From IMG/VR virus record IMGVR_UViG_3300047359_000962, positions 1 to 36,751 of that record: a DNA stretch of 36,751 nucleotides; one strand, written 5' to 3'. The position numbers and the translations under genes are program-made. Under the pieces are notes generated by a model. The model was not told the DNA's origin. It saw only the letters and a list, made by a program, of their open reading frames with translations, and did no database searches. This DNA is from a virus. Shown here in pieces: positions 4,250 through 28,458 of the stretch (the first letter of the stretch is position 1; each line of letters starts with the position of its first letter).

Positions 4250-6085
4250 ATGACGGTCAACACAAGCGATCTAGATTTTGTTAATATTAAAGGTAAGTTA
4301 AAGACTTATTTTCAAAACTCTCCAGAGTTCAAAGACTATAACTTTGACGCGAGCGGTTTGTCAAGTATTCTAGATGTATTAGCATATAATACACACATTA
4401 ATGCATTGATCGCCAACATGGCAATCAATGAGTCGTTTCTGTCAACGTCGCAGTTACGTTCTTCTGTATTGGGGCATGCGGAGTCTTTGGGGTATACGCC
4501 TAGATCTAAGTCTTCTGCTATGGCTACAGTCGACGTTATTATCTCAGATCCACAAGGCGTTACTACAGAAGAAATAATCGGACCTCGTACAAGATTTAAT
4601 ACAGAAGTTGATGACTCTTCTTTTGTATTTTATACTAATCGAGAATATGTCGCAAGCAGAAATGACGACGATCAGTTTATTTTTTCTGGTGTTGATCTAT
4701 ACGAAGGTAAAGAGAGGACTAAGACCTTCTTCGCTGATGCTGATGTCGAAACCGTCTTTGTGATTCCAGATGAAGATATTGATACATCAACAATGATCGT
4801 AGAAGTATATGAAAACTCAACATCTGACGTATCTGTGCGTTATAAAAACATTCTGACTGCACCTGCGATCACCAACAATTCTCGTGTTTATATGTTGAGA
4901 GAAACACCTGCAGGTGAATATGAAATGTATTTTGGTGACGGCGAGTTACTAGGCATTAGACCTTCTGCGGGCAACGTCATCACAGTAAGTTATATTGCAA
5001 CATCAAGTTCTGACGCTAATGGTGCTTCTAATTTTAATTTAGATGCCTTCAATGGGTATAGTAAGCAAGTTGTGACTATATCACCAGCGTCAGGCGGATC
5101 AGAGAAAGAATCCATCGCAGAGATAAAAGTTAATGCTCCACGTGCCTTCGCCACTCAACAGCGACTTGTTACTGCAGAAGATTACACGTCAACTATTAAA
5201 AGTCTCTACGGACAATACCTAAAAGACGTTATATCTTGGGGTGGCAATGATAACATACCACCTAAGTTCGGTTCTGTGTTTGTATCAATCAACTTTTTGG
5301 ACGGGTATACTGAGTCAATTAAAGACGAAATCAAGACGTTGATTCGCGACAACCTTACAGACTTCCGATCCATCATGTCTATTGAGACTGAGTTCGTAGA
5401 TCCAGAGGTCGTCTACCTTAAGTTGACCACGTTGTTCAATTTAGACTCTACGCTTTCAACCGTGAGTACAGAGGTATATAAACAACAAATCTCAGACCTT
5501 ATCTCTAATTATTTCTTTAATGAGATGGACAAATTCGGATCTATCTTCCGTAGGTCAAACCTATTGAGTTTGATAGATGATCAGAGTCCCGCGATACTAA
5601 ACTCTAAAATGGAGATCGTTGCGCAACGACAGATAAATACGCAACCTTATTTTGATGAAATAGACGATTATCATCTAATGAAGGGAACGACTCCACCAGA
5701 CTTCATTGAACGAGACATCACAGTCAACTTCCCATTTACCCTTGCGTTACCGGATAAAGATGATTATGTTATCACAACATCTACATTCAGATATCTAAAT
5801 CAAAACGCGGTGATCAAGAACGAACTAGGTTCATATCGACTACAAGTTTACGACACTAACAATAATGTATTGTTGTCTAACGTGGGTGAATATCAACCTG
5901 CAAGCGGTGAGGTCAATTTTAGAGCATGGAACATACAGCGAGACTCTAACAGAATTATTGAAGTTACCGCAACCCCTGGAAATCAAAGTACGATTACTCC
6001 TCTGCGCAACTACTTGTTTGAACTTTCAGACGACTCAGTTGTACTCGTGAATGTAGAACGAGATGGCACTAAGGTTCTATTGTAA
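4250..6085 (+). CDS. 6: Baseplate wedge subunit gp6 (baseplate J-like)
   Basis: This 611-residue protein is the gp6 homologue, the main structural dimer of the inner baseplate ring (T4 gp6 has 660 residues). Diagnostic blocks are at the N-terminus, LSSILDVLAYNTHINALIAN followed by MAINESFLSTSQLRSSVLGH and AESLGYTPRSK, and near residues 300-345, LVTAEDYTSTIKSLYGQYLK, DVISWGGNDNIPPKFGSVFV. These are the regions shared by T4 gp6 and Baseplate_J proteins. The start directly abuts the gp25 stop, with an AAGGGTGAGG RBS inside gp25. The stop overlaps the next start as TAATG. Confidence 0.93.
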   Translation: MTVNTSDLDFVNIKGKLKTYFQNSPEFKDYNFDASGLSSILDVLAYNTHINALIANMAINESFLSTSQLRSSVLGHAESLGYTPRSKSSAMATVDVIISDPQGVTTEEIIGPRTRFNTEVDDSSFVFYTNREYVASRNDDDQFIFSGVDLYEGKERTKTFFADADVETVFVIPDEDIDTSTMIVEVYENSTSDVSVRYKNILTAPAITNNSRVYMLRETPAGEYEMYFGDGELLGIRPSAGNVITVSYIATSSSDANGASNFNLDAFNGYSKQVVTISPASGGSEKESIAEIKVNAPRAFATQQRLVTAEDYTSTIKSLYGQYLKDVISWGGNDNIPPKFGSVFVSINFLDGYTESIKDEIKTLIRDNLTDFRSIMSIETEFVDPEVVYLKLTTLFNLDSTLSTVSTEVYKQQISDLISNYFFNEMDKFGSIFRRSNLLSLIDDQSPAILNSKMEIVAQRQINTQPYFDEIDDYHLMKGTTPPDFIERDITVNFPFTLALPDKDDYVITTSTFRYLNQNAVIKNELGSYRLQVYDTNNNVLLSNVGEYQPASGEVNFRAWNIQRDSNRIIEVTATPGNQSTITPLRNYLFELSDDSVVLVNVERDGTKVLL

Positions 6086-7200
6086 TGCAAAGAGCGAACG
6101 TCAAATTACACAACAGTCAGGTATCGGAATTACTACCTGACTTTTTTGATTCTGAGTATCCCTTACTAGTCAAGTTTCTAGAAAGATACTACGACTATAC
6201 GAAAGAAGACGATTCTATTTCGTATGAGGCCAAGATCAAAGAGTTGTTTGACCTTCGTGATATCACCACAACAGAACTAGACGCACTAGACTACCTACTA
6301 AGAGAAATAGGTGATGGTGTTGATCATACGATCTTTCCAGAGGACATTCGCGAAGAACGTGCGAGGCTTTCTGCAAGACTTCTAGCGAATTTCTACCGTA
6401 CTAAGGGTACACAGAATTCTGCTGAACAATTTTTCAAGATGTTCTTCAATGAGGACGTTGAAGTCTCTTATCCGAAAGAGAACATCTTTTACTTGAACGA
6501 CCGTATAGGCAACTCGCTCATAGGCCCAGAGTCAATCAAGTTTATTACAGACAACCGCAGATATCAAATCTTTTCTGTTCTTTTAAAAACAGGTTTGTCT
6601 TCTGCTGACTATGACTCTCTATACAAAAAGTATGTACACCCTGCAGGATTCTATCTCGCTGCAGAAGTTGAGACAAAAGGTGTTGGCACTTTAGATGCTT
6701 TAGGCGAGGGCACAGACCCACTAGAGACCCCATACCTGTTCCTTGAGACAGAAGTACACGCTTCAACCACACCGCAATATGACTTGATGACGATGCGAGA
6801 GACTGATCCAGTTGATGAGTCTTTCATTCTAAGTTCCGAAGTCACTTTGCGTTTGTTCGAAGGTATGACGTTACAACGAATAAACGATTTATATGGCACG
6901 TTAGCAGCAGCACAAGCGCCAGGATCTTGTTTGGTGGGGCAAGATGATATATACCTATCAGACGTTTTTGATTGTAAAGATGCAGACTTTGCAGAGACTA
7001 CAATAGACGTTAGTTTAATCGATAGAACGCAGAACAAAAGAATTCAACCAGACCCTGTACCTGATGTCATTACTAAGCAAGACGAAGATAGAGGATTCAA
7101 TGTATTCTTCGGCGACACAAGAATTGAAACAATCAAACTAGGCGAAGAAAACATAACGTCTATACAGTATAGCAACGATCAAATAATCGTAGGAAACTAA
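6085..7200 (+). CDS. Conserved virion structural protein in the gp7 position
   Basis: The N-terminal half of this 371-residue protein has a pattern I associate with structural proteins of marine T4-like phages: [29 protein letters not shown], then [13 protein letters not shown] and [20 protein letters not shown] with [20 protein letters not shown] (about residues 10-145). The C-terminal half (about 200-371) is acidic, with threonine- and leucine-rich strands, and I recognise nothing in it. It follows gp6 with a one-base overlap, where T4 has gp7 (1032 residues), but length and sequence give no reason to call it gp7. A wedge or fibre-attachment role is inference from position. A TAAC separates it from the first adhesin gene. 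Confidence 0.6.
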
Positions 7201-7201
7201 C

Positions 7202-8623
7202 ATGAGTATTATAGATCAAAACTCAGGTGATACAATCAACGTATGGGTTGGAACGCAATCTGAGTATGATGCGATAACATCTAAAGATGAAGACACATTG
7301 TATTTCATCAAAGAAGTTGTGGATCCTCCAGGTCCAGAACCAGAACCTGAGCCACAACCAGAACCAGAACCGGAACCAGAACCGCAACCTGAACCAGAAC
7401 CAGAACCAGAACCGGAACCTGAGCCAGAACCAGAACCAGAACCGGAACCTGAGCCAGAATATCCAGATGGAGTTGAATATTGGATCGCAAGCCCTAGGTT
7501 TGAGTGGTCAGAATACGACTACCCAGATGATGGGACATTAAGCATTACCTTGATGGTGTTTTATAATGATCAAATAGCCTTCCAAGGAACATTCGATTCG
7601 CCGGATGATGTCCCTTTGAGTGTCACAGGTGTCGACGGAAACACTTATACCCGAGGAACATTAGAAGGTTCGTATGGTGCAGTTAACTCGAAATACTTTG
7701 GTGTAACAAAAACTTCTGGGTCGTCTGAACCACAACCAGAACCTGAACCACAACCAGAACCTGAACCACAACCGGAACCGGAACCTCAACCAGAACCTGA
7801 GCCGGAACCAACTATAGACGAAAACATTATGGTGGTAGGAACTGGTGTGCACTTCGAAAGTGACGTTAATGATGATCTTGAATTCAACAGTTTGTATACT
7901 GGATCAAGTCACAGACCAGCAATACAACTTGATACGGCACCGACTATTCAGAGATTGATCGACCTAGAAATGGAAAATGTATCGAATGTTACGGTCGGTA
8001 GATCTTTTAAAACGATCAAAGCGTCAGACTCTCATATATTAGCAAGCACCGACGAAAGTTTGATACAAGAGGATGGATCGTATGGACTCGGTGCGTTATA
8101 TGTCTACTCTTTAGTGGATATACAAAGAGTAAAGAACCTAGAACTTCATACTATGAATGTTACGGGATTAAAAGAAATTGCGACACAAGAGGGTCTTATG
8201 ACATCACAACAAGATGGTGTGTTGGATCCTTTCTGGAACAAACTTAACCTTGCTGGTAAACGAAAGGTTTTACAGCACTACTTACTTGACCCTAAAATTG
8301 TAACCAACGGTGGATACTCAACAGATACATATGTTGCTGAACCAGAACCAGATCTACCAAACAATCAACCTCATTGGTCAGGATCGGTCCCTAGGTATGA
8401 GTGGTCTGAGTATGTTGTCGAGTCAGATAACGACGACCCATCAACTTCACTTATTTTAATGTGGAATAACATTAAGGTGTATCAAGAAGAAATACCAGAC
8501 GGTCAAACAATTCCAAGTAGAATAACCACCGATGACGGAGATACTTATTTGAGAGGGGCTCTCAGAGGATCTTATGGTGAAAACGAACAATCAAACTACT
8601 ATAGCATCATAAGAGAGGGATAA
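7202..8623 (+). CDS. Modular tail fibre/adhesin-like protein with Pro-Glu linkers
   Basis: This 473-residue protein is built from separable parts. Residues 11-37 ([20 protein letters not shown] then TLYFI) are a short N-terminal element common in phage fibre and collar proteins. Residues 42-86 are an almost pure PEPEPQ linker. Residues 92-171 are a module with SEYDYPDDG and [15 protein letters not shown]. Residues 176-203 are a second PEPQ linker. Residues 207-378 are a middle domain I do not recognise ([30 protein letters not shown]). Residues 391-473 are a second copy of the first module ([34 protein letters not shown]). The same module recurs in three other genes. Repeated surface domains on acidic stalks suggest a virion-exposed adhesin or decoration. 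The start codon is one base past the previous stop. Confidence 0.6.
7325..7459 (+). repeat. Pro-Glu (PEPEPQ) linker repeat, first copy
   Basis: About 45 codons alternate CCA/CCT/CCG with GAA/GAG and occasional CAA, a 6-base period in DNA. The encoded stretch is acidic and proline-rich, expected to be an extended stiff spacer between the N-terminal element and the first globular module. Confidence 0.9.
7727..7810 (+). repeat. Pro-Glu (PEPQPE) linker repeat, second copy
   Basis: A second run of alternating proline with Glu or Gln, about 28 codons, separates the first module from the middle domain of the same protein. The 6-base DNA period matches the first linker. Confidence 0.9.
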
Positions 8624-10899: not shown

Positions 10900-11781
10900 A
10901 TGTCTCAGCAAAAATTAAATCTCGGAGTAGGTGCTAACGACGGCACCGGAGACACTTTACGAAGTGCTGGTGAGAAGATCAACGACAACTTCGAAGAGTT
11001 GTACTACTTGATCGCTTTAGGCGGAGGCGACGGAAATGTTGACATGGACGCCATTCGGGCATTGATCGACCAAGAAATACAAGATCAATTAGAAAAACTA
11101 AATATCACCGATGGTGCGAATTCAGCAAATATTCTTTTGTACAAATCATTTTCTTCAGATATTTTACCGCCAGAAGAAGATATAGATTTTTCTACGATCT
11201 ACACGTTTGAAACCGGAAACTTAACAAAAGTTGACACTACGGATTTAGATTTTAAAGAGTGGCAGACAGAAGCCCCTCCTATTAGTTCCGGAAGGTTTGT
11301 ATTTTTGATTCAGGCTGTTTTGATAAGCGCTGAAGATTCAGTTACGGTAGAACCTAGCCGGTGGTCTAATCCAGTTTTAATTTTTGATCGAGGTTTTGAA
11401 GACCTTGATGTAAATATTGTATCTTCTAATGGAAATGTTTTCAGAGAAGATCAAGGTCAAACAGAACTAAAAGCAAATATCATTGCAGATGGTGAAAGTT
11501 TGATAACAGACGACTATTCTAACTTTAATTACGAATGGTCCGATGGTGAGAATCCTGTATGTGTCAATTTATCTACACGTGAAGTTTCTCATTTGAATGG
11601 GGAAATCGTTACTGCAACTGATGGCGTATGCCCAGTTGGGTTCGGTGTTCCTGCAAAAAGTTCTTCTAGTTCATTTTCAAATGGAGAGCTCAGATCGATT
11701 TTTATTGATGCCCAAGCGGTACCTAATCAAGGAACGCTAAACTTACAATTAACCATTACAGACAAAATTCAAGAGGATTAA
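10900..11781 (+). CDS. Tail fibre/tip-like protein, N-terminal segment of a split set
   Basis: This 293-residue protein begins with an element typical of phage fibre N-termini: LNLGVGANDGTGDTLRSAGE then KINDNFEELYYL (residues 6-37). A short helix follows (AIRALIDQEIQDQLEKL), then one copy of the ~90-residue module repeated in later genes (ILLYKSFSSDILPPEE, FETGNLTKV, WQTEAPPISSGRFVFLIQA, RWSNPVLIFDRG; about residues 78-168). The C-terminal domain (VNIVSSNGNVFREDQGQTEL onward) resembles the C-terminal domain of the next protein (VNIVPNNGVFRNNSGSPITA). A late promoter precedes it and the next gene follows after two bases. It looks like one part of a larger tip or fibre architecture divided over three ORFs. 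Confidence 0.62.
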   Translation: MSQQKLNLGVGANDGTGDTLRSAGEKINDNFEELYYLIALGGGDGNVDMDAIRALIDQEIQDQLEKLNITDGANSANILLYKSFSSDILPPEEDIDFSTIYTFETGNLTKVDTTDLDFKEWQTEAPPISSGRFVFLIQAVLISAEDSVTVEPSRWSNPVLIFDRGFEDLDVNIVSSNGNVFREDQGQTELKANIIADGESLITDDYSNFNYEWSDGENPVCVNLSTREVSHLNGEIVTATDGVCPVGFGVPAKSSSSSFSNGELRSIFIDAQAVPNQGTLNLQLTITDKIQED

Positions 11782-11783
11782 TC

Positions 11784-12941
11784 ATGGCAACAAGAACGGC
11801 CACGGCCGCCATAACCTTAACTGACCTGAAAGATGGTCAAGATTCAGTAACAGCGTTCTTAACTAACGAAAACCATTCATTCGTTGCTAACGACGCTGGC
11901 GTAGTACACCAAGACACTATAGGACTTTTCTCAAGTTATGTGAAAGTGTTTGTGGGTGGAACCCCACAGACATATTCTGTAGGAACCGAACCACAAGCTG
12001 GAAAGTTCGGAATAGGAACACTTGCTTCTTCATCTTCTGGTTGGGAATTCGTAGTAGACTCAAGCACTGGTGAAATTACAGCTGATGCTATTGGTATTGC
12101 TAATATCAACAAAGTAACAGTACCTGTCTACTACAACAACGCAGGATCAATTAATAACTTCAACTTAGAAATATCAGTAAACCGAGTTCAAGATGGTGCT
12201 GGTGGCACTGTCATTAACTTAACACCATCAAGCCAAATGTTCTCTGCTGATGCTAATGGTGTAATGCTACCAAGTCAGCTCGATGCTGATCTTGAAATCG
12301 ATGTCACCGGAAATCCTGGCGCACTCAGTTACGAAACCTCAAAGGACGGCCTTCCTTATGTCGCTCAGACATCAACAGGTGACAATCCAGGCGGAATCGC
12401 AGGATATGATACTGATGGGTCAGGAACATATTTAACAGGAACATTACCGACAAATTTGGGCAATGGTGCTCGACTTTTGATCAAGAAAGAAAACCTAGGC
12501 AGCAGCGTCGCTACACTAACGGTTCGCGTAAAAGGCGTAAATGCTGGAAAGGACGCAGTAACTTTTGCTAAAGTTCGATCAGGGGCTGGTGCGGTTTACG
12601 TCAACATCGTTCCAAATAACGGCGTCTTCCGTAATAATTCAGGCAGCCCTATTACTGCTATCGCTAAAGTCTATGATGCTACTACAGGACTTCCAATGTT
12701 TGATGCTGGAGATAATAATTACCCAAGAGTTCATTATGATTGGGAATACCTTGATGAAACACAGGTCTACTACAATACGGAAACTGGTGTGATTTCTACA
12801 GACGCTAATGGAGTTCCTTCTACTACCGGCACTGCTGCTGAAGGTTATGGACTTGATGAGCTTATTATTGGACCATCAAACGTTCCAGACACAGGCGAGC
12901 CAGTTAGCATTACTTGTACCGTTACTGTAACAACTGAATAA
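11784..12941 (+). CDS. Beta-rich tail fibre/tip-like protein, middle segment
   Basis: This 385-residue protein appears to be a chain of beta-sandwich domains. The N-terminal domain starts with VTAFLTNENHSFVANDAGVV; the same LTNENHS domain is found inside the 1348-aa protein (LDLTNENHSITAQNDGTLYN). A second domain begins at about residue 145 (VINLTPSSQMFSADANGVML). The third, from about 270 (VYVNIVPNNGVFRNNSGSPI), matches the end of the upstream 293-aa protein. There is no enzyme motif and no transmembrane segment. The RBS AGAGGA lies inside the end of the preceding gene, so the two are tightly coupled. The domain set suggests a shaft or tip protein working with the flanking ORFs. Confidence 0.58.
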   Translation: MATRTATAAITLTDLKDGQDSVTAFLTNENHSFVANDAGVVHQDTIGLFSSYVKVFVGGTPQTYSVGTEPQAGKFGIGTLASSSSGWEFVVDSSTGEITADAIGIANINKVTVPVYYNNAGSINNFNLEISVNRVQDGAGGTVINLTPSSQMFSADANGVMLPSQLDADLEIDVTGNPGALSYETSKDGLPYVAQTSTGDNPGGIAGYDTDGSGTYLTGTLPTNLGNGARLLIKKENLGSSVATLTVRVKGVNAGKDAVTFAKVRSGAGAVYVNIVPNNGVFRNNSGSPITAIAKVYDATTGLPMFDAGDNNYPRVHYDWEYLDETQVYYNTETGVISTDANGVPSTTGTAAEGYGLDELIIGPSNVPDTGEPVSITCTVTVTTE

Positions 12942-12969
12942 TTAATTTGATAACAAAGCGAGTTCCCCC

Positions 12970-15357
12970 ATGGCAACTGTAAAAACAGCTCAAGACACAG
13001 CTACTTTCGTAGACCTACATGATGGTACGTCAAGAGTAACACTGCAATACTTTTATAAGACTAGTGCAGATGCTAGTGAACCAACTGTACCACAGGGGAA
13101 CTTTGAATATAACTTTTTAAGTGGAGTACTGACTGCCAGTGTCTCCACTGCTTTTGATAACTGGTCGACCATTCCCGAGACCCTTTCTTTCTCAGAAGCA
13201 TTGTGGATGGTGTCCATCACATTAGAAGGTTCGACAGTATCTACCGCAACGTTTGATAAAGATGATTGGAACGGTCCTGTTGTTCTTTCACGTGTTGGTT
13301 TTCAACCGACACAACCAGATCCAGCAACAAGTGTTGCGACGGTCTTTATATTCAAAGCAGGTGCAAGCAATACCACGGCACCTACTGGAAATCCATCGGG
13401 CGACTTCACCTTCACTTATGCAACGGGTAATTTGTCAGGTGGGAATCTAAACGGGTGGTCTCAAGACTTACCTACTGTTGCCCCAGGAAATTATGTTTGG
13501 GTGAAGCAAGCAACTGCATCTAGCACTTCCACAACAGACACGATTCCAGCATCTGAATTTAATGCGAGCGCCGCAACTGTTTTATCAGGAACAGGGCTAG
13601 ACGGATACAACACTGCAGTCGTACAACTATACAACAAAAACAGTAATGCGTCAAGTGCTCCAGCAGACCCGACGGGTAGTTTCAAGCACACCTTTTCTAC
13701 TGGTTTGTTGACCGCAGAGTCCGGTGCTGATTTTAAAGGATGGACTCAGAGTGCTCCGTCAATCACAAACGGAGAATACCTTTGGGTCATTCAGGGATCT
13801 GCCGTTTCACGTGGATCTACAGACCTCATTGCGGGAAGTGAGTTTGGTGCCGCACAGATTGTCGGTGTTGGTGGTGAAAATGCTCTACCGTTAACTGTTA
13901 CTGATACAGACAGAGACGGACTGAACCAAACAATCACTTTGAGTGATGGATCAACGATAGTAATTAGTGACGGTAATCCTGCTACCAATGAAGGGGTTAT
14001 CGTTGTCTATGCATCGAATGCCAATGGCGCTGATAAGAGTCTAGCACCAGGACCTAATCTACAGTACGTAAGGTACTATGAGTGGTCGGGTACAAAACCC
14101 ACTCTAAGTGAGATACCAAATACCAATAATGGATGGGTCAAGTACATAGGTGAGAATGCTACCGATTCCGGCGTGATTCCTATCTATTCTCCTATCTCAG
14201 ACCCAGATGCAAACACCAATTTATCGTTGACCCTAGGTAGCAACACCTACGTGACGTTCTATGAGTGGACAATTACAAAACCGACATCGGTGCCTAGTGA
14301 CGCGCACACGAATACTTTCGTTCCATTCGTTGCTGTGTCTCCAACAATATCGACCAGTTATAATGCAACCACCGGAGTGACAACAGTCACTGTTGTTGAT
14401 ACAGACGGAAGCACGAACTTCGATATCACTGACGGGGATGCGGGTACTTCAGAAGGGGTCACAGTAATCTATGCAAATGATTCTAGTGGTGATGGTAAAA
14501 ATACTGTTCGACAGACTGGACAGGAATATGTCTTATATTATGAATGGGTCGGCATAGAGAATAAACCAAACTCTGACCTTTCCAATTTGACGGGTACTTT
14601 GGAATGGATCAAGTTCGTAGGAGAGACTCCGAACGCACCAGATGCACAAGGCATCATTCCGATTTATGCAAACAGAGCAAACCCAACACAAGATAGTCAC
14701 ACTTTCATATCTTATTCCACTGGTCGAAATTGGGTAACGTTCCTAGAGTACTCCGGAACCAGACCAACAAATGTACCTAGTGGCACACACGAACAAACAT
14801 TCGTCCCGTTCGTCGGAAGTAACGGTGACCCAGCAGGTCGATATTCAACATTCCGTGCATACAGTACAACAAGCACTACTCCACCAAGTGGTACTATCAC
14901 TTGGGCAACAGGTGCTGTCGTTTTAAGTGATACTACGAACTGGTCTCTGTCTGCCCCAGAGGTTGCAGTTTCACCGTCCACGACGGTCTATTGGTCAGAT
15001 CTTGTTTTTGTTGATGCTGATGGTGATGCGGAATATACTACAGACACAGGCAGTGCTGTACGATCATTGATCAGTTTCAATGGTGTGGTGTCGTTCACGA
15101 ACACCACTGCTGGAAGTATTGAATTAAACAACGACGGAACTCCAATTCCAGTTCTCGATCCGACATCGGTGGGCCCTGCAGGATCGACTGTAATTAACGG
15201 CGGTCGTATCGACGCCAATACGATAAAACTATCCGGTATAGAAAATAGTGGCGGCGCTACAACAGGAGATCAATCAGGTATGATCTTGAGCGACGATACA
15301 ATAACAATTCAAGATTCGGCAGGGTTGACAAGGGTCTTCATAGGAAAGTTGTCATAA
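12970..15357 (+). CDS. Tail tip/fibre-like protein with fibre modules and J-type C-terminus
   Basis: This 795-residue protein contains three tandem ~90-residue modules at about residues 23-110, 121-207 and 212-300 (LQYFYKTSADASEP; VFIFKAGASNTTAPTG; VQLYNKNSNASSAPAD, each followed by an F-strand, a GW or NW and a W-strand). Two ~145-residue repeats follow at about 312-455 and 475-618 (DTDRDG versus DTDGS, EGVIVVYA versus EGVTVIYA, YYEW, IPIY, TFVPFV). One more short module starts at about 625. The C-terminus has VSFTNTTAGSIELNND, STVINGGRIDANTIKLSGIE and ITIQDSAGLTRVFIGKLS, a layout typical of the end of lambda-J-like host-specificity and central-tip proteins. No T4 core homologue is apparent. 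The start (12970) follows a weak GCGAG. Confidence 0.62.
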   Translation: MATVKTAQDTATFVDLHDGTSRVTLQYFYKTSADASEPTVPQGNFEYNFLSGVLTASVSTAFDNWSTIPETLSFSEALWMVSITLEGSTVSTATFDKDDWNGPVVLSRVGFQPTQPDPATSVATVFIFKAGASNTTAPTGNPSGDFTFTYATGNLSGGNLNGWSQDLPTVAPGNYVWVKQATASSTSTTDTIPASEFNASAATVLSGTGLDGYNTAVVQLYNKNSNASSAPADPTGSFKHTFSTGLLTAESGADFKGWTQSAPSITNGEYLWVIQGSAVSRGSTDLIAGSEFGAAQIVGVGGENALPLTVTDTDRDGLNQTITLSDGSTIVISDGNPATNEGVIVVYASNANGADKSLAPGPNLQYVRYYEWSGTKPTLSEIPNTNNGWVKYIGENATDSGVIPIYSPISDPDANTNLSLTLGSNTYVTFYEWTITKPTSVPSDAHTNTFVPFVAVSPTISTSYNATTGVTTVTVVDTDGSTNFDITDGDAGTSEGVTVIYANDSSGDGKNTVRQTGQEYVLYYEWVGIENKPNSDLSNLTGTLEWIKFVGETPNAPDAQGIIPIYANRANPTQDSHTFISYSTGRNWVTFLEYSGTRPTNVPSGTHEQTFVPFVGSNGDPAGRYSTFRAYSTTSTTPPSGTITWATGAVVLSDTTNWSLSAPEVAVSPSTTVYWSDLVFVDADGDAEYTTDTGSAVRSLISFNGVVSFTNTTAGSIELNNDGTPIPVLDPTSVGPAGSTVINGGRIDANTIKLSGIENSGGATTGDQSGMILSDDTITIQDSAGLTRVFIGKLS
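13903..14823 (+). repeat. Two ~145-residue in-gene repeats
   Basis: Residues about 312-455 and 475-618 of the 795-aa protein repeat the same order of motifs: D-T-D-x-D/G, (I/V)xDGxxxTxEGVxVxYA, YVxYYEW, W(V/I)K(Y/F)(I/V)GE, GxIPIY, VTFxEW/Y, KPTxVPS or RPTNVPS, THxxTFVPFV. The copies are clear at protein level and diverged in DNA. Confidence 0.75.
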
Positions 15358-15408: not shown

Positions 15409-16767
15409 ATGCCAGCAACAGTAAGACAAACATTTAATCAAGACCTTGCGAAACGATTTCTCGCAGATGTTATTGGTACAGAAAAAGAATTTTATATCGG
15501 TATTGGTAAGTCAGATGTTTTCCCAACCGCAGTAGTTGATGGCGAAACCATCGTTGACTATCCTTACTTGCCTATAGACGGCAACCTAGAAGAGAGCGAG
15601 TTTCGCCACAATCTACAGTCTATCAAGAAAGTAGAAGGTGCAATCATCGTCGCAAAACGAAACAACTGGGTCTCTGAAGCGATATATCACGAGTGGTCAG
15701 ACGTTAAGAACGCCGAAGAAGATACCGCGTTCTATGTTTTAAACGACGCCAAGGAAGTCTATGTCTGCCTAGAGACAGGTCGTGATGGTGATGGTAATAT
15801 CGTCACTTCTACTGTCAAGCCTAGTTATTGCGAACTCAACGTAGACTACACTCGACCATTCCGAACTTCGGACGGTTACGTATGGAAGTTTCTATACAAG
15901 TTGACCCCTCAGCAAATCTTCCAATACCTTTCTAGCAACCACGTACCAGTCAGTCTGACAGGTCCAGTATCTAACTGCGACAACTCTGCGATTGAAGACT
16001 TGCAGATGAACGTGATCAATGCCGCAGTTAAGGGCGAGATCATTCGTTGTGAAGTGACGAGTAAGGGGTCAGGGTATACAACTACCCCTACCGTAGAAGT
16101 TGTGGGTGATGGTTCTGGTGCTGCGGCAGTCGCGACTATGGTCGGCGGTGAGGTCGTAAAGATTACGATGACAAACTACGGTTCGGGGTATACCCGTGCA
16201 TCGTTTGTCCTAGACGGAACGCCTACTACTGAGTGCGAAACACGCGCAGTGATCACTAAACACATGGGTAACGATCCAGTAGATGATTTAAAAACAAGTT
16301 CGGTTATGTTAAACATTAAACCAGACGGTACGGAAGGCAATACATTTATTGTAGAGAATGAGTTCCGTCAGATCGGTGTTATTCAAGATCCTTTAGCATT
16401 AGACGGCGCTCCATATACAGAAATTTCTGGTAAAGTTATGTCGGTCATGCATTTTGACGCAGACTCCCCGTTCTCTAATGGTAGCCTTATTAAGGGTCAA
16501 GGCGATTACCCTGCAGAAGCATATGTCAATGAATCTGTTGGTCAGCACTTACTGTACCATCAAAACGAAAGTACAGGGTATCTTCCCTTTGAACTAGGCG
16601 ATTTAATTAAAGAAGTTGGATCAGACGCGGAAGCGACTGTCACGGGATTGACCTTTAGACAAGAAATAGATAGGTATAGCGGTCAGGTTCTATACATTGA
16701 AAACCGTTATCGAATCATTAGAGACGCAGAACAACAAGAAGACATTAAAGTCGTTATTACAATATAG
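15409..16767 (+). CDS. 8: Baseplate wedge subunit gp8-like
   Basis: This 452-residue protein corresponds to T4 gp8 (334 residues), a baseplate wedge protein. Matching blocks are the N-terminus ([20 protein letters not shown] then YIGIGKSD), [15 protein letters not shown], the aromatic strand [15 protein letters not shown] (about residue 153; T4 has GDGYVWEYLFEIPP) and the C-terminus [16 protein letters not shown] then [11 protein letters not shown] (T4 ends with GEMIYMENRPPI and EEINILFTF). An insertion at about residues 214-270 contains two G-S-G-Y-T units ([35 protein letters not shown]) and explains much of the extra length. It lies over 9 kb from gp6, with the adhesin cassette between. 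Confidence 0.85.
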
Positions 16768-16775
16768 GATACACG

Positions 16776-19700
16776 ATGACTGATTATACTAATAAAGTTT
16801 TTCGCGAAACATACCGAGACTTCTATGATAAGGAAGACGGGTATCATCGTGTATTGTACAATTCAGGTCGCGCACTACAAGCGCGAGAGTTAACAGAATC
16901 TCAAAGAATCATTCATGAAGAGATTGCGCGGTTTGGTCAAAACATCTTCAAAGAAGGTGCAATGGTCAATCCAGGTGGCGCGACCGTTGATAATGGTTTA
17001 GAGTACATTCGACTCACCGCAGAAAGTACTTACGATGAATCCCTTATCGGCGTAGAACTAACTAACGGCTCTGTACAATTCAAGATTTTAGAGATGTACA
17101 ATATAGAGGGTGAAGATCCTATTACGTTGTATGTCCAATACACAAATACTCTTAATGATGTTGATACAACGACAGCCCCCAGAGTTTCTTCTGGTGATAC
17201 GCTGGTTCGTGTTGTGGGAGCAACTACTCCCACTATGGTCGTTGCGGCAGATAAACCTGTTGTAGAAAATGGTGTGACCGTGAAGGTCATCCCAGGATCT
17301 GGTAAAGCAACAAAAGCATACTTTGCCTCGGGTGATTTCTTTGTACAGGGTCACTTCGTTTATCTAAGCGGTGGCAGTGCATTTATTGACAAGTATAGTG
17401 GCGTTCCTACAGTAGACTTTGGGTTTCGTGTCGAAGAGAATATCATCACAGAAAGCGAAGATGAAAACTTACACGACAATCAAGGTGAGGTTCCTAATCT
17501 AACATCTCCTGGCGCGCACCGATATCAAATCAGACTCGTACCTAGCGTTCTTGATGAATCAAGTAATAATTTTGTATTCGTTGCACGTATTGTCGACGGC
17601 GTCATTACTCGCGAAGTGAGTTCTTTCGATGCATATAATCGTATCAACGATCTACTGGCGATTCGTACAAAAGAAGAGTCGGGCGATTATGTTGTCGAAG
17701 ACTTCAAAGCAATCTTTGAAGATATAGATGACGACGAAACAAATCTAAACCTAGACGTGACAGAGGGTGTCGCGTACGTAGACGGTTATCGTTTGGAGGT
17801 GGGTACTACTGACATCACCGTACCGAAAGCGCGTGATACGCGAACACAAGAGCTAGAAGCAGTACCTGCAGTATACGGTAACTGGGTGTACATTGACCCA
17901 GATCGAACACAGGGTTTCGGCCGTCTAAATGTATTCGGCGGTGTTAACTTAGTTGACATCAACGATGTTGTTATAGGATCTGCACACATTCGTGGCATTC
18001 AACCAGACCAAGTAGGTTATAGACTATATCTTTTTGATATCAAGATGAATCTTGTTAATCCAGGAGACATCACTTCAAATATTCGACATTCGTTTTCAAA
18101 AGTTACGAAACTTGTTGATGAGTCTAATGGTAATGTAATGCCTCTAAGACCTTTGACCTTTGATACAGATCCGGATCAAACGCCTCTTACCTTTGACACT
18201 ACATTGTATGGCACATCTAACAACGATCTGTTGTTCGCGCTTCCATATAAGTCGCCGTCAAAACTTAGTATTCAGAACGCTTCTTATACTGCTCAAACGT
18301 TTATTTTTGCGAGAACTCCTACAAATGGAGAAATACAAATTAATGACGGGGTTGAAGAAAATCAATGGGTTATTGCAGAATCAGGCGGACCTATTCTAAA
18401 CGGCGAAACCCTCAAAGACAAAATTGTCACACTTTCAAACGGCATATACGTAATCACGGGCCTCGATGACGCGAAGGCATATGATATCGCATACTTCAAA
18501 CAAGAATCTATAAGTCCTAAGACTAAAACTGTTACGACCAATGTAATTAGTTTATCCCTATCAGAATCAGGTATAGAGACCATCGGTCTAGGTGTTGTTG
18601 ATGGCATATCTCTTGATGAAGTGAAGATCAGAGAGAATTCGACAACCCTTTGGACAGACGCGGAAGACATTACACACCAATTTACTTTAGATGGCGGTCA
18701 GCGAGACAACTATTATGGTCTCGCACAAATAATGTTGAAGAGTGGGTATACTTTACCTTCGGACGGTGAACAGGTACAGGTAACTTTCACATACTATGAT
18801 CGGATAGGTGGCGGTAAGTTCTTCGCTGCAAGCTCATATCAAGATGTAGATTATGAAGACATCCCTAGTCATACAACTTTAAGTACTGGAGAGACTGTCT
18901 CTTTACGCGATGTGTTAGACTTTAGGCCAGACCGAAACTCTACTAGTCCTTATGACTTTACTGTTTCTGAGTTACCACAGAATGCTTCATCAATTATAAT
19001 CAATGAACTAGACTACTACATGCCACGTACAGACGTTCTTGTAGTGAATGCTACAGACAGTCGTGGAGATATAGGATTTGGTGAGTTACAAGTCGTTCGT
19101 GGTCAACCTGCAATCGATCCTCGTGAACCAGAAGTCCCTGCAGGATCATTAGCATTATACAAGTTCACATTGAACGCATACACATTCGACCGTTCAGATG
19201 TAATCAGCACATATATACCTAACCGCCGATTCACGATGAAAGACATCTCTAAATTGTCTGATCGTGTAGAGACCTTGTACGAATTGACCGCATTGAGTTT
19301 CCTTGAGACTAATACGAATGTGCTTTCGGTGCTTGATGCGAACGGTAACAACCGTACAAAGGCAGGGTTCATCGCGGATAATTTCAGCACGCTAAACTTC
19401 TGTGATGTGCATAATCCAGCATATCGTGCGTCGGTGGACCCAGAAGGTCTACTAAGACCATCGTTCGTTGAGAATTCTGTGCGATTGATGTATAATGCAT
19501 CTAATACAGATAATGTTATATCTAAGAAAGGCGATCTTGTCACTCTTCCACATACAGACGAAACTTTCGTCTCTCAGACACTAGCGACTGGAACTGATAA
19601 CATCAACCCGTTTGCGGTAATCACTTCAAACGGACACATGACGTTATCGCCTTCATCTGACGAATGGGTAGAAGTGAAGCGACTTCCAGATATCATGCAA

Positions 19701-22359: not shown

Positions 22360-22599
22360 ATGATTATGAATAAGCATTTAAAGGTCAAAGGTCATAACAA
22401 TCTAGTGCGAGATAGCCGTACTGGTGCCATACTAAATACTAACAAATCCGAAATACAAAACGCGAGGAACCAAAGCAGAGTACAACGAGAGAGGCAAGAT
22501 CACATCAACTCCCTTACAGAAGAAGTAAAGGGGTTGAAAGATGACATGCGACAAATCAAAGAACTGCTTATGGGTTTATCAGGGGAAGTGAATGAGTAA
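22360..22599 (+). CDS. Small conserved phage protein, coiled-coil C-terminus
   Basis: This protein of about 77-79 residues has an N-terminal motif, HLKVKGHNNLVRDSRTGAIL followed by NTNKSEIQNARNQ, that I recall from small proteins in the structural region of T4-like marine phages. The second half is a short coiled coil (HINSLTEEVKGLKDDMRQIK, ELLMGLSGEV). The start could be ATG at 22360 or ATG at 22366; the latter puts the conserved KHLKVKGH closest to the N-terminus, and no strong RBS decides it. Its stop lies 8 bases into the next gene, whose RBS (AGGGGAAG) is inside this ORF. A role as structural adaptor is a guess. Confidence 0.7.
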   Translation: MIMNKHLKVKGHNNLVRDSRTGAILNTNKSEIQNARNQSRVQRERQDHINSLTEEVKGLKDDMRQIKELLMGLSGEVNE

Positions 22600-25500
22600 C
22601 ATAAAAACCATTAATCTTGCAGATCATATTAATTCTGCTATCGATAAGATCAATGAAAACTTCGTTGAGGTTATGGCTAATGCTGGTCTGACTGAGGCAG
22701 AAGTTATTGCCCTTATATTGTCTGAAATCGGTAAGATTAATGATGATACGGGATTTACTGAGGCTGAAATTCGTGCATTCCTCGCGTCTACTACATTAGA
22801 CCTTGGTAGCAACAAGATTCTATACAGCAATGTATTTCCTACTGAGGCAGACCTACCGGACGCTTCTGCTTATCATGGTATGTTCGCGCATGTTCATGCC
22901 ACTGGTGCTGCATACTTTGCGCACGGTGGACAATGGGTCGAACTTGCGAACAAGAGTGATGTGGGTAGTGGTGGCGCGACATCCCTTGACGAACTATCAG
23001 ATGTAGAATTTACGACTCTTGCTACGGGCGAAGTTTTGAAGTGGGACGGCGTCAGATGGACTAATAAAACAGATAATAATACTGGTGGCGGTGGTTCTGG
23101 GTCATCAACCTTTCACGCAACTGTCTACACAAGATCTGAAACAAATCCTAATCAACCTACTGGTGGGTCATATGATTTTGCTGCAAACGACAATCAAGGT
23201 CTATTGACTCCTCCTCCAGCAACTGACGTTACTTGGTATGAAAACTTACCCGCCGCAGTAAGTGGGGATCCTTCTAAAGTATGGGCGTGTAATTATAGGT
23301 TTGTAGACATACAGTCAGATACAGATTTAATTTCCGGTGGACAGTGGTCTATCCCTTATCTTATTGGTGGAACACCAGTAGATAATAGCGGTCAAGATCA
23401 GTATGCCCAGTTATTAGCATACAAGAGATCATCAACAACGTTGTCCAGCGGCGATCAACCTTCGGCAGATGATGGTGATGACGTAGGTTCTTTCAACTTT
23501 GATACTCGCGAATATTCTGCCCCCGACGGGTGGAAAGAAACTCCATATGGCAGCGTTAACGATGGCCAACTATATGTGATAGGTGGTATTTCCTCTGATG
23601 CTGACGGCCGTATAGATACGTCAATTTTATGGTCTGATCCATTAATCGCAACAACCGGTCTTAACGGAACTTCGGTCACAGAAATCTCACTCTACAAAAT
23701 GGTAGAGCGTCCAGATGGTTGGGAACCTTCGGACGGGTTAAATCCACCTGACAAACCAGAGGCAACAGGAACTCTAAACTTTGGCGACAATACATTTACT
23801 CGCGGCGATAGTGACTCATGGTTCTCTTCGCTAAACGCAGTTTATGCTTGGGGGGAGAGTCAAGATCCGAAAATAAGAGGAGACATTTGGTCGTCAACAT
23901 ATAGTTTCCTTATCGAAGGTGACACGGGTACGGCAAGTGTTGAAGATCCCCCAGGATGGAGTGAACCAGTACCAGAAATTCTTCAGTCAAGGTCAACATA
24001 TAGAGCATCGCTTTATATGCGCAAGTCTAGGACATATGATACGAACGGTAATATTGTACCACCAGCTGCGATTGACTCGGGCAACAGCGTCGTATATAGT
24101 TTTACCTCTAATGAATTTATCAAGACTGCTAGTGGAAACGTTTCGGGCGCTAGTTCTACGGGTCTCTGGTATGAAGAACCACCAGCATTAGATCTAGATG
24201 ACCCTAAAGATTTGTGGGAAGTCTCGACTGTAGCTTCCTTAGCAGGATGGTATGGCGTTGATGGGTCGTTAACTTTTACAGATCCTAAGTTATCTGTAAA
24301 CTACGCGATCGATGCTGAAAATGGTTATAGTTTCCTTCAGTTGAATCTTTACAAGTGGTCTACGGCTGACTCATTGACTGAGCCTGCTAACGATTATGCG
24401 AAGTTCAACTTTACAAATAAAAAACTAATATTACCAACTGTTGGTAGTGATGATGACTTGGGGTGGTCACAAGTAATACTTGATAACCCAGATGAAAACA
24501 ATGAAAATTACAAATTATATGTGACGACGGGTGTTGCGTCAACTCAACCCCCTGCTAATTCAGGAAGCGACGAACCACTTACAGAAGATAATGATATTAG
24601 CTGGTCTATTCCAGACCAAACTACCGCTGGTGGTGCGGGTCGTGATGGACGATCAACATATCTCGTAAGAATTGTTAAGAAGCACGTGGTCACTGAAGAT
24701 GCTTCAGAACCAGATACTCCAGTAGGTGGTTTAGTAAACTTCGGTCAGAATCCTGTTGATCCAGCATCAGAAGATCCTGTGATCGACACACAATTACTAA
24801 ACACATATTATCTAGATGTTAATAACCAAATCCCAGGCAACTCTGTCGTTCCTCCTAAAGGGTGGTGGGATCATGTAAGCGAAATTCCTCCTAGTGAAAC
24901 AGGCACCATATTCGAAAGTGAAATGACTTTCGCGATTAATGGTGATACTGGAATAGATCTGGGCGGCGAGGGTTGGTGTGATCCTTACTTAGATCACAAT
25001 AATGGCGAAGACGGATACTCGTCTTTCTCCGGCCAGATTTTTATAAGATCACCTGAACAACCAAACAAGCCTATAGGAGGATCATATAGTTTCGATAGTG
25101 ATGTAATGTCTAGTCTTCCGTCAGGATCTTATGGGACAGGAGATGATAGTGTTGATTTAGGAAATTGGACAGAAGACGCGCCAGCATCTAATTCAGCTGG
25201 CGATTCTCTATGGATGTCTCGCACTACCGCAACAAGTAAAGATCTTGCTGGCGACGATACAGACTTGACTTGGACTATTCCTGTAAAGATATCAACAGAC
25301 GGTAGTTCAGCAATCGTCTTAGACCTTACTAATGAGAATCATTCGATCACTGCCCAGAATGATGGTACACTATACAATAATTCTTTGGTAGGTGCTTCAA
25401 CTAAACTTCAAGCATTCTTAGGCGATACTGCTATACCTCTGACAGCATCTCAAGTAAATGTAAGCATTATTGGTGACGTTGTATCAAATGACGCCAGTGA

Positions 25501-26638
25501 TGGCGGCGTGCAGTGGGAAGAAGAGTGGGGAGAAGATGGACTACTAACAACGACGATTACTCTTGTCGGTAAAAATGTAGATGAAGTTGCATTGTTGTTC
25601 AGTGTACCTTCACTAAACAAATCTACTGTGTTTAGTCTTACAAAAGTCAAAGCAGGTCCAAACGGAGAACCGCCAACAGTTTATCGATTAGTGCTCAGCG
25701 CTAGTGTCGTTAGAGCAAATTCTACTAAAACGGAATATACTCCAGATACGATCACCGCTACGGTTATGAAGTATACAGGTGGGATGCCGCCTGTAGCTGC
25801 GAATCAGACCGATGGAACTACTATCAAAAGGTATCGTAACGAGGATTCGACTCTTTCCGATCAATCGGATAGTGGGGCATTATCGTATACAATTTCTAAT
25901 GGCACGACAGAAAGTTTGTTCCAGTTATACGTGGGTGACACCAAAGTCGACGAAGAAACCGTCCCAGTAGTTATTGAACAAGCAGACCCAGGCGACATAA
26001 CGGTAAATATTCCTAGAACGGAAACTGGATATCTATATTACTTAGAGTCATCAACAGGCGCTCCAACCCCCACTCCGTCAGCAACTAGATTCACTTTCAC
26101 TGAATTTGTAGATTCAGCAGATACTGTGGTCGATGGGTATTTTACTGGACTTTCTCCTACATATAGTGGAACATCTAACCCGAAGTGGTCGATTTCCCCT
26201 GTGGGCACAAATTTGTCTGGTGATAACTGGGCCGTTAAGTTCATAGCAAACGAGTCCGTTGATGATAGTAGCGGAAACCTCCTTGGATACTCAGAAGGTT
26301 CTGATCTAATGTTTAGCCCTCCCTTCCAATCATATAGTTTTGATGGGTTGGTTACGTTTGAGAATACTAATAACATTTTCACTGAAGATTCTGATAATCG
26401 GACTGTAATTGACGGAGGGAAGATTCTCACCAACTCAATTACGGCCGATCAGATCGACACATCAACACTCTCTATTACGCCCGACTGGAACGCCCTTGAC
26501 GCGCAATCGACGGGTTCTGCTGCGGGCGAAAAGGTAGAGATAACTTCGAAGGGAATGAAAGTCTATTCTGGGTTGGACAGTGACGGCGATTCTATTTTAC
26601 GTGTACAATTAGGCGACCTGAGTGATTTACCGTCATGA
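22592..26638 (+). CDS. Giant modular tail fibre/tip-like protein with seven fibre modules
   Basis: This 1348-residue protein has an N-terminal fibre element (INSAIDKINENFVEV), a second fibre-like segment (LDELSDVEFTTLATGEVLKW, about 132-151), a glycine-rich hinge, then seven tandem ~90-120-residue modules at about 173-260, 271-358, 362-463, 468-572, 580-685, 688-806 and 810-904. Each starts with an aromatic/LY-x-(R/K) strand (LLAYKRS, ISLYKMV, ASLYMRKSR, LNLYKWS) and ends with W-S-x-P then G. Next comes an LTNENHS domain (about 907-1027), further beta domains, and a J-type C-terminus (TVIDGGKILTNSITADQIDT). It contains in one chain nearly all the parts that the three ORFs at 10900-15357 carry separately. 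The RBS AGGGGAAG at 22581 fixes the start. It probably acts as a fibre or tip component. Confidence 0.68.
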   Translation: MSNIKTINLADHINSAIDKINENFVEVMANAGLTEAEVIALILSEIGKINDDTGFTEAEIRAFLASTTLDLGSNKILYSNVFPTEADLPDASAYHGMFAHVHATGAAYFAHGGQWVELANKSDVGSGGATSLDELSDVEFTTLATGEVLKWDGVRWTNKTDNNTGGGGSGSSTFHATVYTRSETNPNQPTGGSYDFAANDNQGLLTPPPATDVTWYENLPAAVSGDPSKVWACNYRFVDIQSDTDLISGGQWSIPYLIGGTPVDNSGQDQYAQLLAYKRSSTTLSSGDQPSADDGDDVGSFNFDTREYSAPDGWKETPYGSVNDGQLYVIGGISSDADGRIDTSILWSDPLIATTGLNGTSVTEISLYKMVERPDGWEPSDGLNPPDKPEATGTLNFGDNTFTRGDSDSWFSSLNAVYAWGESQDPKIRGDIWSSTYSFLIEGDTGTASVEDPPGWSEPVPEILQSRSTYRASLYMRKSRTYDTNGNIVPPAAIDSGNSVVYSFTSNEFIKTASGNVSGASSTGLWYEEPPALDLDDPKDLWEVSTVASLAGWYGVDGSLTFTDPKLSVNYAIDAENGYSFLQLNLYKWSTADSLTEPANDYAKFNFTNKKLILPTVGSDDDLGWSQVILDNPDENNENYKLYVTTGVASTQPPANSGSDEPLTEDNDISWSIPDQTTAGGAGRDGRSTYLVRIVKKHVVTEDASEPDTPVGGLVNFGQNPVDPASEDPVIDTQLLNTYYLDVNNQIPGNSVVPPKGWWDHVSEIPPSETGTIFESEMTFAINGDTGIDLGGEGWCDPYLDHNNGEDGYSSFSGQIFIRSPEQPNKPIGGSYSFDSDVMSSLPSGSYGTGDDSVDLGNWTEDAPASNSAGDSLWMSRTTATSKDLAGDDTDLTWTIPVKISTDGSSAIVLDLTNENHSITAQNDGTLYNNSLVGASTKLQAFLGDTAIPLTASQVNVSIIGDVVSNDASDGGVQWEEEWGEDGLLTTTITLVGKNVDEVALLFSVPSLNKSTVFSLTKVKAGPNGEPPTVYRLVLSASVVRANSTKTEYTPDTITATVMKYTGGMPPVAANQTDGTTIKRYRNEDSTLSDQSDSGALSYTISNGTTESLFQLYVGDTKVDEETVPVVIEQADPGDITVNIPRTETGYLYYLESSTGAPTPTPSATRFTFTEFVDSADTVVDGYFTGLSPTYSGTSNPKWSISPVGTNLSGDNWAVKFIANESVDDSSGNLLGYSEGSDLMFSPPFQSYSFDGLVTFENTNNIFTEDSDNRTVIDGGKILTNSITADQIDTSTLSITPDWNALDAQSTGSAAGEKVEITSKGMKVYSGLDSDGDSILRVQLGDLSDLPS
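23108..25303 (+). repeat. Seven tandem fibre modules
   Basis: Seven protein-level repeats of roughly 90-120 residues lie within the 1348-aa protein. Shared positions are an N-terminal LY-x-(R/K/W) strand, a Pro-x-x-Pro-x-G turn, an F-x-F or Y-x-F strand, a GW or W core, and a C-terminal W-(S/T)-x-P followed by glycine. The modules are diverged, so the repeat is old rather than a recent duplication. Confidence 0.72.
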
Positions 26639-26937
26639 GTTATGGTCTATATATTTCAGACGGTAAGAATGGTGCAGTTATTACCAACTCCAATAATATA
26701 TTCAATGAGGAAGTTGATCTTGATTTATCAGACCTATCCCTTCCTTCGGGGGGTTCTCTTCCAATACAAACTGAAGGCGCTGGAAACCCAGCACTCATAG
26801 AACTTTCAATCGTTGCAAGTGGAGAAACGATTGATGACTTAACCATTACTAGAGACTTATCCACAGATACATTAACAATCACAAACACTGGAACGAGCGA
26901 CTTATCGTTTTCCGCAAAATTATTTAGGTTTCAATAG
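26635..26937 (+). CDS. Small YGL-module protein, first copy
   Basis: This 100-residue protein starts with MSYGLYISDGKNGAVI, the YGL-type N-terminal motif of small distal fibre or tip proteins in many tailed phages. The rest is serine/threonine-rich beta strand ending SFSAKLFRFQ. There is no signal peptide or catalytic motif. It overlaps the preceding stop as ATGA and its stop overlaps the next start (TAGTG), so it is translated with its neighbours. A 102-residue protein of the same type occupies the same position in the second cassette (28150). It probably forms part of a fibre tip, inferred from motif and order. Confidence 0.6.
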   Translation: MSYGLYISDGKNGAVITNSNNIFNEEVDLDLSDLSLPSGGSLPIQTEGAGNPALIELSIVASGETIDDLTITRDLSTDTLTITNTGTSDLSFSAKLFRFQ

Positions 26938-27701
26938 TGTCAAACGATTACGGTCTTACAGTTTATAATGATAACGGCGGGTTAATGTTTGACTCTCGTC
27001 GGAAAATGAACAGTTATGTTGTGACTGAAGTTTCCACGGGGAAGGGACCTGACACGTCAGGGTTTACATGGGACCCAGAAACAGGAGACCTTCTAATATC
27101 AGAAGCAGACTTCGTTTTTGTTAAGATTCCTCCTAGTTCAGAGTCTATTGTGATTTATTATAGTCCATGGCAATCTAAATTTTACTCAAGAACGATGACT
27201 ATTAATTATTCGTCAGGCACTACGTCCGCAACTTTTGGTCCAGAAACAGAGATAGATCTTGATTATTTTGTAGTAAAACATTCTAGTAAAGTTGACCTTG
27301 AAGGGGATTTTGGATTATCGATATTGAATGAAGACGGTACAAAACAGTTTGATAGTAGATCTATCAAGTTAGGTAATCATTTTAAAATTACTTCTTTTAG
27401 CCCAGCAGGGTCTGTAGACGCATGGTCTCCTGAAGATGAAGGTATAAGTTTGGGTGACAATGATGATTATTGGGAAATAAGTAAGTGGACATACGCAACA
27501 ATAGGTCCTGGATCAACTGCTATACAAGGTCTCTGGGGAGCTGGTAACGGCCCATTCGCTATAAATTATTTTTCGGTTTCAATGGGTGGGGGTGGAGAAC
27601 AACCTACTGGTGGGCTACCTAGCACCACCTCTAGCGAGACTTGGGGGTCTACAATTTATAGTACGATACTTTCAGCGGAATTAACAGGAACGGTAAATTA
27701 A
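26937..27701 (+). CDS. Double YGL-module fibre-tip-like protein
   Basis: This 254-residue protein starts with GTG, sharing its G with the preceding TAG. It has two YGL modules: residues 4-25 (DYGLTVYNDNGGLMFDSRR) and 124-145 (DFGLSILNEDGTKQFDSRSI), each followed by a beta domain. Between them is LDYFVVKHSS, matched by FDYFVVRKAS in the 1449-aa protein. The whole chain parallels residues 1-280 of that larger protein, so it looks like the short form of the same architecture. The end is a Gly/Pro/Ser-rich stretch (GGGGEQPTGGLPSTTSSE). A virion tip or adhesin role is inferred from the module and the tail chaperone gene that follows. Confidence 0.6.
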   Translation: MSNDYGLTVYNDNGGLMFDSRRKMNSYVVTEVSTGKGPDTSGFTWDPETGDLLISEADFVFVKIPPSSESIVIYYSPWQSKFYSRTMTINYSSGTTSATFGPETEIDLDYFVVKHSSKVDLEGDFGLSILNEDGTKQFDSRSIKLGNHFKITSFSPAGSVDAWSPEDEGISLGDNDDYWEISKWTYATIGPGSTAIQGLWGAGNGPFAINYFSVSMGGGGEQPTGGLPSTTSSETWGSTIYSTILSAELTGTVN

Positions 27702-28149: not shown

Positions 28150-28458
28150 ATGTCGTACGGATTAGAAATATATGGGCCAGTAATAGACAGTGCTGGGTCT
28201 TCTAAATTAGTATTTTCTGATAATATTCGCACTTCTAATATTCAATTATATTCTTCGTTTAGTTTGAGTAAGAATGAAATAAGTAGTGTGTATGCTTGCC
28301 CCGATGCCAACGATGATACTAAAATATTAATTATATTTGTGGGCAACCCTAGATATGTTGACGTGATCAACAAAACTTCGACTGGTTTCCAATTACAAAA
28401 TAATAGTGGTTCTAACGGTACACAGGGTGGTATTGTAATGGCACTGAGAATCTCATAA
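28150..28458 (+). CDS. Small YGL-module protein, second copy
   Basis: This 102-residue protein begins MSYGLEIYGPVIDSAGSS and continues as short beta strands (VFSDNIRTSNIQLYSS, ILIIFVGNPRYVDVI), ending GGIVMALRIS. It has the same length class, start motif and relative position as the 100-residue gene at 26635, but low identity otherwise. The upstream run AAGGAAT is its RBS, and its stop overlaps the next start as TAATG. I infer a fibre-tip component paired with the large downstream protein. Confidence 0.58.
   Translation: MSYGLEIYGPVIDSAGSSKLVFSDNIRTSNIQLYSSFSLSKNEISSVYACPDANDDTKILIIFVGNPRYVDVINKTSTGFQLQNNSGSNGTQGGIVMALRIS

Follow-up and report, generated by a model that had tools for sequence, protein, structure and literature searches.

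In phages G7C and K1-5 and in Klebsiella phages (KP32), an anchor with a T4gp10-like domain binds another receptor-binding protein through a short, conserved peptide at the N-terminus of the latter (PMC6872550). In phage T4, the N-terminus of gp12 binds coaxially to the N-terminal domain of gp10, and the long tail fibre gp34-gp35-gp36-gp37 strings together, in order, chains from several genes (PMC3004832). Here we describe three neighbouring ORFs of 293, 385 and 795 aa, followed by gp8, on a phage fragment of 36.7 kb that comes from a public collection of viral sequences; the whole stretch of 36,751 nucleotides is called the window below, and a T4-like baseplate region lies inside it. We consider it likely that this trio builds one baseplate-bound tail fibre, of three proteins joined head to tail.

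The trio resembles the anchor systems in that the first protein would dock by its N-terminus and offer a domain, the second would bind by an N-terminal peptide, and the distal parts are swapped. A short conserved N-terminal peptide, as in those systems, was found on the 385-aa protein and the third ORFs only. However, the joint would be used twice in series through a dedicated adaptor, the Ig-like acceptor has no detectable T4 gp10 match beyond the N-terminal dock, and the trio alternates with a single-chain fibre in close relatives. A sequence profile gave no match of T4gp10-like docking domains 2/3 in the acceptor; given a weak model, a remote fold relation between acceptor and gp10 is possible. 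Compared with T4 gp10 and gp12, the dock of the 293-aa protein corresponds to the gp9/gp10 N-terminus, but about 40 gp10 residues are in common, and the gene order relative to gp8 and the downstream domains differ. With the T4 long tail fibre, the trio shares the principle of one fibre made from several encoded chains in order, but no sequence relation was detected. To our knowledge, no repeated pair of acceptor and N-terminal motif has been described for that fibre, and a literature search judged by titles returned no identifiable split or fused fibre like the trio. What is new is the proposal of two joints in series via an adaptor, alternating with a single chain, while multi-chain fibres and the logic of anchor and peptide are already known.

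Three separate genes in a conserved order

The gp7-position wedge protein of the window is followed by a 473-aa ORF, a 743-aa ORF, the trio and gp8 (Table 1). The closest annotated match of gp6 was in phage C48C1 (Kyanoviridae), at 48%. As the initial annotation had described, the trio ORFs exist and the first two nearly abut, with a gap of 2 bases between the 293- and 385-aa ORFs and of 28 bases before the 795-aa ORF.

Table 1. Coordinates of the fibre locus and its surroundings in the window
Feature	Position	Strand	Remarks
gp5-type OB protein	at 1812		
gp25	at 3806		
gp6	at 4250		
gp7-position baseplate wedge gene	6085..7200	+	Pfam Baseplate_wedge PF23786; upstream border of the wider fibre slot
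293-aa base protein	10900..11781	+	Wedge dock, one fibre module and C-terminal acceptor domain; syntenic in all three-ORF relatives
T4 gp9/gp10-type dock, residues 1-45	10900..11034	+	Pfam T4_gp9_10_N (PF07880), E 6.9e-8, above cut-off
Fibre module of 293, residues 72-166	11113..11397	+	Homologous to the 795 modules
C-terminal acceptor domain of 293, residues 166-293	11395..11778	+	Proposed socket for the 385 N-terminus
CAAGAGGATTAA-TC	11770..11783	+	Ribosome-binding-like AGAGGA in the last 293 codons, 6 bases before the 385 ATG
385-aa adaptor	11784..12941	+	Proposed N-terminal plug strand and three Ig-like domains, the last being the acceptor
Adaptor N-terminal motif, residues 3-22	11790..11849	+	Proposed plug; among 861 N-termini, common to third ORFs only
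LTNENHS Ig-like domain, residues 17-138	11832..12197	+	Matches the 1348-aa protein at 902-952
Second acceptor domain, residues 268-385	12585..12938	+	Homologous to the 293 C-terminal domain
795-aa distal fibre	12970..15357	+	Proposed plug strand, fibre modules, duplicated inner module, tip-J-like tip
Distal fibre N-terminal plug motif (proposed)	12970..13035	+	19.2 bits on the adaptor matrix; best unrelated N-terminus 7.3
Inner module, doubled	13876..14829	+	About residues 303-455 and 455-620; single in relatives
Tip (TVINGGRIDANT ... RVFIGKLS)	15202..15354	+	Similar tips end the single-chain fibres of relatives
gp8 baseplate wedge gene	15409..16767	+	PHROG 438 E 3.7e-68, Pfam Phage-Gp8; downstream slot border
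DUF4815 protein	at 16776		
1348-aa single-chain fibre, second slot	22592..26638	+	Dock fragment, modules, part of the LTNENHS domain and tip in common with the trio

We gathered relatives of the 385- and 795-aa proteins from viral contigs. Wherever a contig had the whole first ORF and extended far enough to include the gene after it, it carried the order 293-385-third as separate ORFs, and this order was kept across relatives down to about 37-55% identity. The dN/dS values against the relative L107 were 0.07, 0.24 and 0.26 for the three ORFs, and no fused 293-385 or 385-795 was found among the acceptor-bearing contigs examined. All three ORFs are thus real, separate, working genes under purifying selection. 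The initial annotation had raised the possibility that a gene was split, and a fibre gene recently broken by stops or frameshifts, in the genome or in assembly, would fit the short gaps and the fact that the single-chain 1348-aa protein of the window combines modules, an LTNENHS domain and a tip. This explanation is hardly credible, however, given that each ORF has its own start and that no examined contig with an acceptor has the ORFs joined, across several metagenomes and two phage types; conservation of order and selection rule it out. The combination expected of an interrupted fibre, namely an intact one-ORF version of the domains in close relatives together with relaxed selection on the pieces, was not found. 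An old split from one chain is a possible origin of the trio.

The IND/ENF element that the initial annotation had noticed at the N-terminus of the 293-aa protein proved to be its T4 gp9/gp10-type dock. The profile of the 293 family against PDB 5hx2 matched T4 gp10 at residues 2-41 (E 1.2e-7) and at these residues only, so that the middle and C-terminal domains of gp10 had no counterpart. The fibre module and the LTNENHS domain were also present where expected, the former matching modules of the 795-aa protein by profile (E 4.5e-9 and 3.5e-8). The acceptor domain ends at the stop codon or at most 1 residue from it in 16/16 distinct first ORFs, and its profile gave no PDB match up to E 1. The AlphaFold model of the 293-aa protein was weak (mean pLDDT 52; acceptor domain mostly below 50), and a fold search with it yielded nothing significant. 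AGAGGA or AGAGGG together with the 2-base gap is kept in all listed wedge-type relatives, and the ribosome-binding-like site within the end of the 293-aa ORF suggests translational coupling of the 385-aa ORF.

Homologous C-terminal domains and a shared N-terminal motif

As had been noticed at the outset, the C-terminal domains of the 293- and 385-aa proteins match each other. The hhalign comparison gave E 1.2e-9 over 104 columns, nearly full-length, and HMM searches gave E 1e-6 and 3e-4. By contrast, the C-terminal domain of the 293-aa protein did not match the two other Ig-like domains of the 385-aa protein (E 0.05-0.08). Generic beta-strand similarity, a concern raised with the initial annotation, is ruled out as the source of the match, which is both nearly full-length and specific.

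The AlphaFold model of the 385-aa protein reached a mean pLDDT of 64, with the N-terminal region mostly below 50, and a fold search with it returned generic Ig-like tandem matches and phage proteins including those of tip-J type. We assign three Ig-like domains to this protein, the first with LTNENHS, with moderate to low confidence. A search of the annotated phages in the collection with the 385-aa protein gave no match, and none of the bacterial and archaeal genomes searched with this protein family contained a relative.

We scored 861 distinct ORF N-termini from the window and the fetched loci with a matrix built on the N-terminal residues of the 385-family proteins. Below five members of the 385 family, ranks 6-13 of 861 were all third ORFs, of both fibre types described below, at 10-24 bits, and the next N-terminus scored 7.3. 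The third ORF of the podovirus-like contig L214, which lay outside the matrix set, scored 23.5 bits. A third ORF added later, from L194, scored 6.3 bits, below the best unrelated N-terminus (7.3), and was placed by position and by likeness to other starts of its type, so the matrix alone does not separate every case. The motif is short, covering about the first 20 residues of the 385-aa protein, and the matrix search found it in no window protein beyond the 385- and 795-aa ones. The acceptor and the motif also occur together: 16 distinct first ORFs end in the acceptor, the adaptor comes next in 15/15 having a next gene, and a third ORF with the motif follows in 13/13. Thus, in this set, the proteins ending in an acceptor appear to be exactly those followed by a protein starting with the motif. 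The homologies of acceptor and motif therefore suggest two successive socket-and-plug joints.

Two unrelated kinds of third ORF occur, namely module fibres resembling the 795-aa protein and collagen-like fibres (type B, including L194) whose shafts match Pfam Collagen at E 1e-85 to 1e-99. Because a collagen shaft requires three chains, the three-protein fibre is probably trimeric.

The trio was also found in the contigs L214, L215 and L217, where the first protein has a different N-terminus and no wedge dock. In L214 its proteins measure 257, 379 and 880 aa; the L217 contig ends after the second gene. A 522-aa gene beside the trio resembles one in CRP-7 (34% over its length); this Roseobacter phage is a short-tailed podovirus (PMC6918029). 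At the corresponding position CRP-7 has a single 295-aa fibre ending in IRVKIGDLS. From its neighbouring genes, we take L214 to be a podovirus.

Single-chain fibres in the slot of the trio

In many relatives, one ORF with a gp10-type dock and a similar tip occupies the place of the trio upstream of gp8. In L118 this is a chain of 1745 aa with the dock at its start and RVILGQLS at its end, and the wedge gene of this contig is 90% identical to that of the window by BLAST; in L117, which is of the same kind, the wedge is 94% identical over 300 compared tree columns. Coiled-coil shafts occur in single chains of L120 (1792 aa), L165 and L169 (1291 aa) and C48C1 (1568 aa), while L142, L149 and L183 carry dock, collagen shaft and head in a single chain. 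Over 129 residues, the head of L183 and that of the stand-alone third ORF of L168 share 76% identity (E 2e-69). With their coiled-coil or collagen shafts, these single chains are one-chain equivalents, not simple fusions of 293, 385 and 795. The C48C1 fibre (OQ984149) agrees with the trio in genomic slot, dock (56% over 48 residues) and kind of tip, but differs in being one chain with a coiled-coil shaft, without acceptor domain and without adaptor.

The gp7-position wedge gene was the basis of the survey and of a tree, in which the nearest neighbour of the window (94% identical) has the one-chain form. At least seven changes between one-chain and three-chain forms are needed on this tree, which has 44 rows, was made by a quick method and includes several partial contigs called one-chain from the N-terminal part alone. 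The slot contents were therefore probably exchanged repeatedly. These phages thus offer a natural comparison between one-chain and three-chain versions of the same baseplate fibre, with the adjoining wedge gene up to 94% identical.

The initial annotation had taken the 1348-aa protein for an intact paralogue of the trio, with the same parts in one chain. Domain alignment of 10900-15357 with 22592-26638 showed that fragments alone are in common. The dock is represented by 17 residues (E 1.9e-5) and the LTNENHS domain by about 45-51 residues (E 4.6e-6 and 3e-7); the fibre modules are of the same wider family, as seen by iterated search only, and the tip is weakly similar (E 7e-4). The C-terminal domain of the 293- and 385-aa proteins was not found in it (E 0.24-0.26). 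An intact copy of the trio is thereby ruled out. The protein lies in another fibre slot, the one behind the DUF4815 gene. C48C1 likewise has a single chain there, a 457-aa fibre that matches the N-terminal 118 residues of the 1348-aa protein (51%). The related suggestion, that three subunits assemble into what is one chain elsewhere, is supported in so far as L118, L120, L165, L142, L183 and C48C1 have syntenic single chains; the 1348-aa protein is not the counterpart.

Collagen-type fibres in the trio slot have an extra gene between fibre and gp8 (L013:11181-11828, L153:8241-8876, L025:11782-12330, L168:13204-13755 and L183:14010-14561), which encodes either a 2OG-Fe(II) oxygenase (Pfam E 4e-13, 3e-9) or a DUF6445 protein; the genes at this position are different ones in L016 and L149. 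Closed non-collagen slots with gp8 adjoining had no extra gene before gp8 in the slot survey. With an oxygenase gene next to that of a collagen-like fibre, one may ask whether the fibre is hydroxylated.

Proposed assembly, alternative readings and neighbouring genes

The homologies, gene order, co-distribution and single-chain equivalents were observed; from them we infer a physical assembly with the motif as plug, the C-terminal domain as socket and a role in receptor binding. The 293-aa protein would dock on the baseplate wedge via its T4 gp10-type N-terminus and present the Ig-like acceptor domain at its other end, into which the 385-aa protein would insert its N-terminal strand motif (TATAAITLTDLKDG). 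The C-terminus of the 385-aa protein would then offer the second, homologous acceptor, and the 795-aa protein would plug into it by the same N-terminal motif, carrying the shaft and the tip that presumably meets the host. Because this joint would consist of a motif plugging into the second acceptor, the third protein would be exchangeable, and other phages would plug in a collagen-like fibre; the whole trio would be exchangeable for a single chain with dock and tip. The weak AlphaFold models of the 293- and 385-aa proteins, each predicted singly, speak neither for nor against strand insertion. Each of the two acceptor domains appears to include a last strand of its own, so the N-terminal strand may bind otherwise; the 385-aa protein could also sit beside the fibre instead of in line.

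The same parts could be arranged differently. The 293- and 385-aa proteins might form a branching hub with the third protein as one of several attached fibres, and the pairing of an acceptor with a conserved N-terminal peptide does follow the logic of anchor-branched receptor-binding systems (PMC6872550); the 293-aa protein keeps its own fibre module, and there are further fibre-like genes in the vicinity (those for 743 aa at 8628 and for 1348 aa at 22592). We regard such a hub as unlikely, since the motif was found only on the two proteins following the two acceptors and on no other window protein, and one acceptor per plug better fits a linear chain. Still less probable, in our judgement, is that the three are independent proteins at neighbouring baseplate positions, with shuffled beta-sandwich modules, which never form one fibre. 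Ig-like modules are widely shuffled among phage tail proteins, the fold search yielded broad Ig and tip-J-type matches only, and the third ORF is replaced between clades. However, the specific pairing of domain and motif and their unbroken co-occurrence speak against independence, as do the replacement of all three by one dock-to-tip chain and the recurrence of the trio, its dock changed, in a second type of phage.

A linear fibre of three proteins remains our preferred reading. We add, tentatively and with more doubt than conviction, that acceptor and N-terminal strand may constitute a portable plug and socket, compatible with itself, which works by strand insertion and serves at two successive joints, and that unrelated virions, contractile-tailed and short-tailed, may exchange the adaptor-plus-fibre set or replace it with a single chain. 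The short N-terminal motif and the C-terminal domain are the parts that should form the joint. If true, the proposed assembly would explain how the distal fibre is replaced without touching the baseplate, and would provide a marker by which adaptor-type fibres, whose genes lack annotated relatives there, could be found in uncultured marine phages. With the assembly probable, this marine phage shows how phages can switch between one-piece and plug-together receptor-binding fibres.

Several further features were seen around the fibre genes. The 473-aa protein (7202-8623) and the protein of the DUF4815 gene (16776-22355), both structural proteins, contain long proline-glutamate linkers (PEPEPQPEP), and the C-terminal domains after these linkers are similar (27% over 102 residues when the 473-aa protein is compared with a relative of the DUF4815 protein). 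Two large proteins at 28458-32807 and from about 33420 to the end of the window consist almost entirely of degenerate short repeats (e.g. YxRTRTSxYxGNYxR), and a related protein, more than 2900 aa long, occupies the equivalent position in C48C1. Two homologous tail assembly chaperone-like proteins (Pfam Phage_tail_APC; 27712-28140 and 32856-33335) flank a repeat protein, one before and one behind it, and L214 also has a tail-fibre-assembly-like gene after its trio. Small proteins with MSYGL-type starts lie among the fibre genes (26635-26937, 26937-27701 and 28150-28458), and in the podovirus CRP-7 proteins with similar starts come after its fibre.
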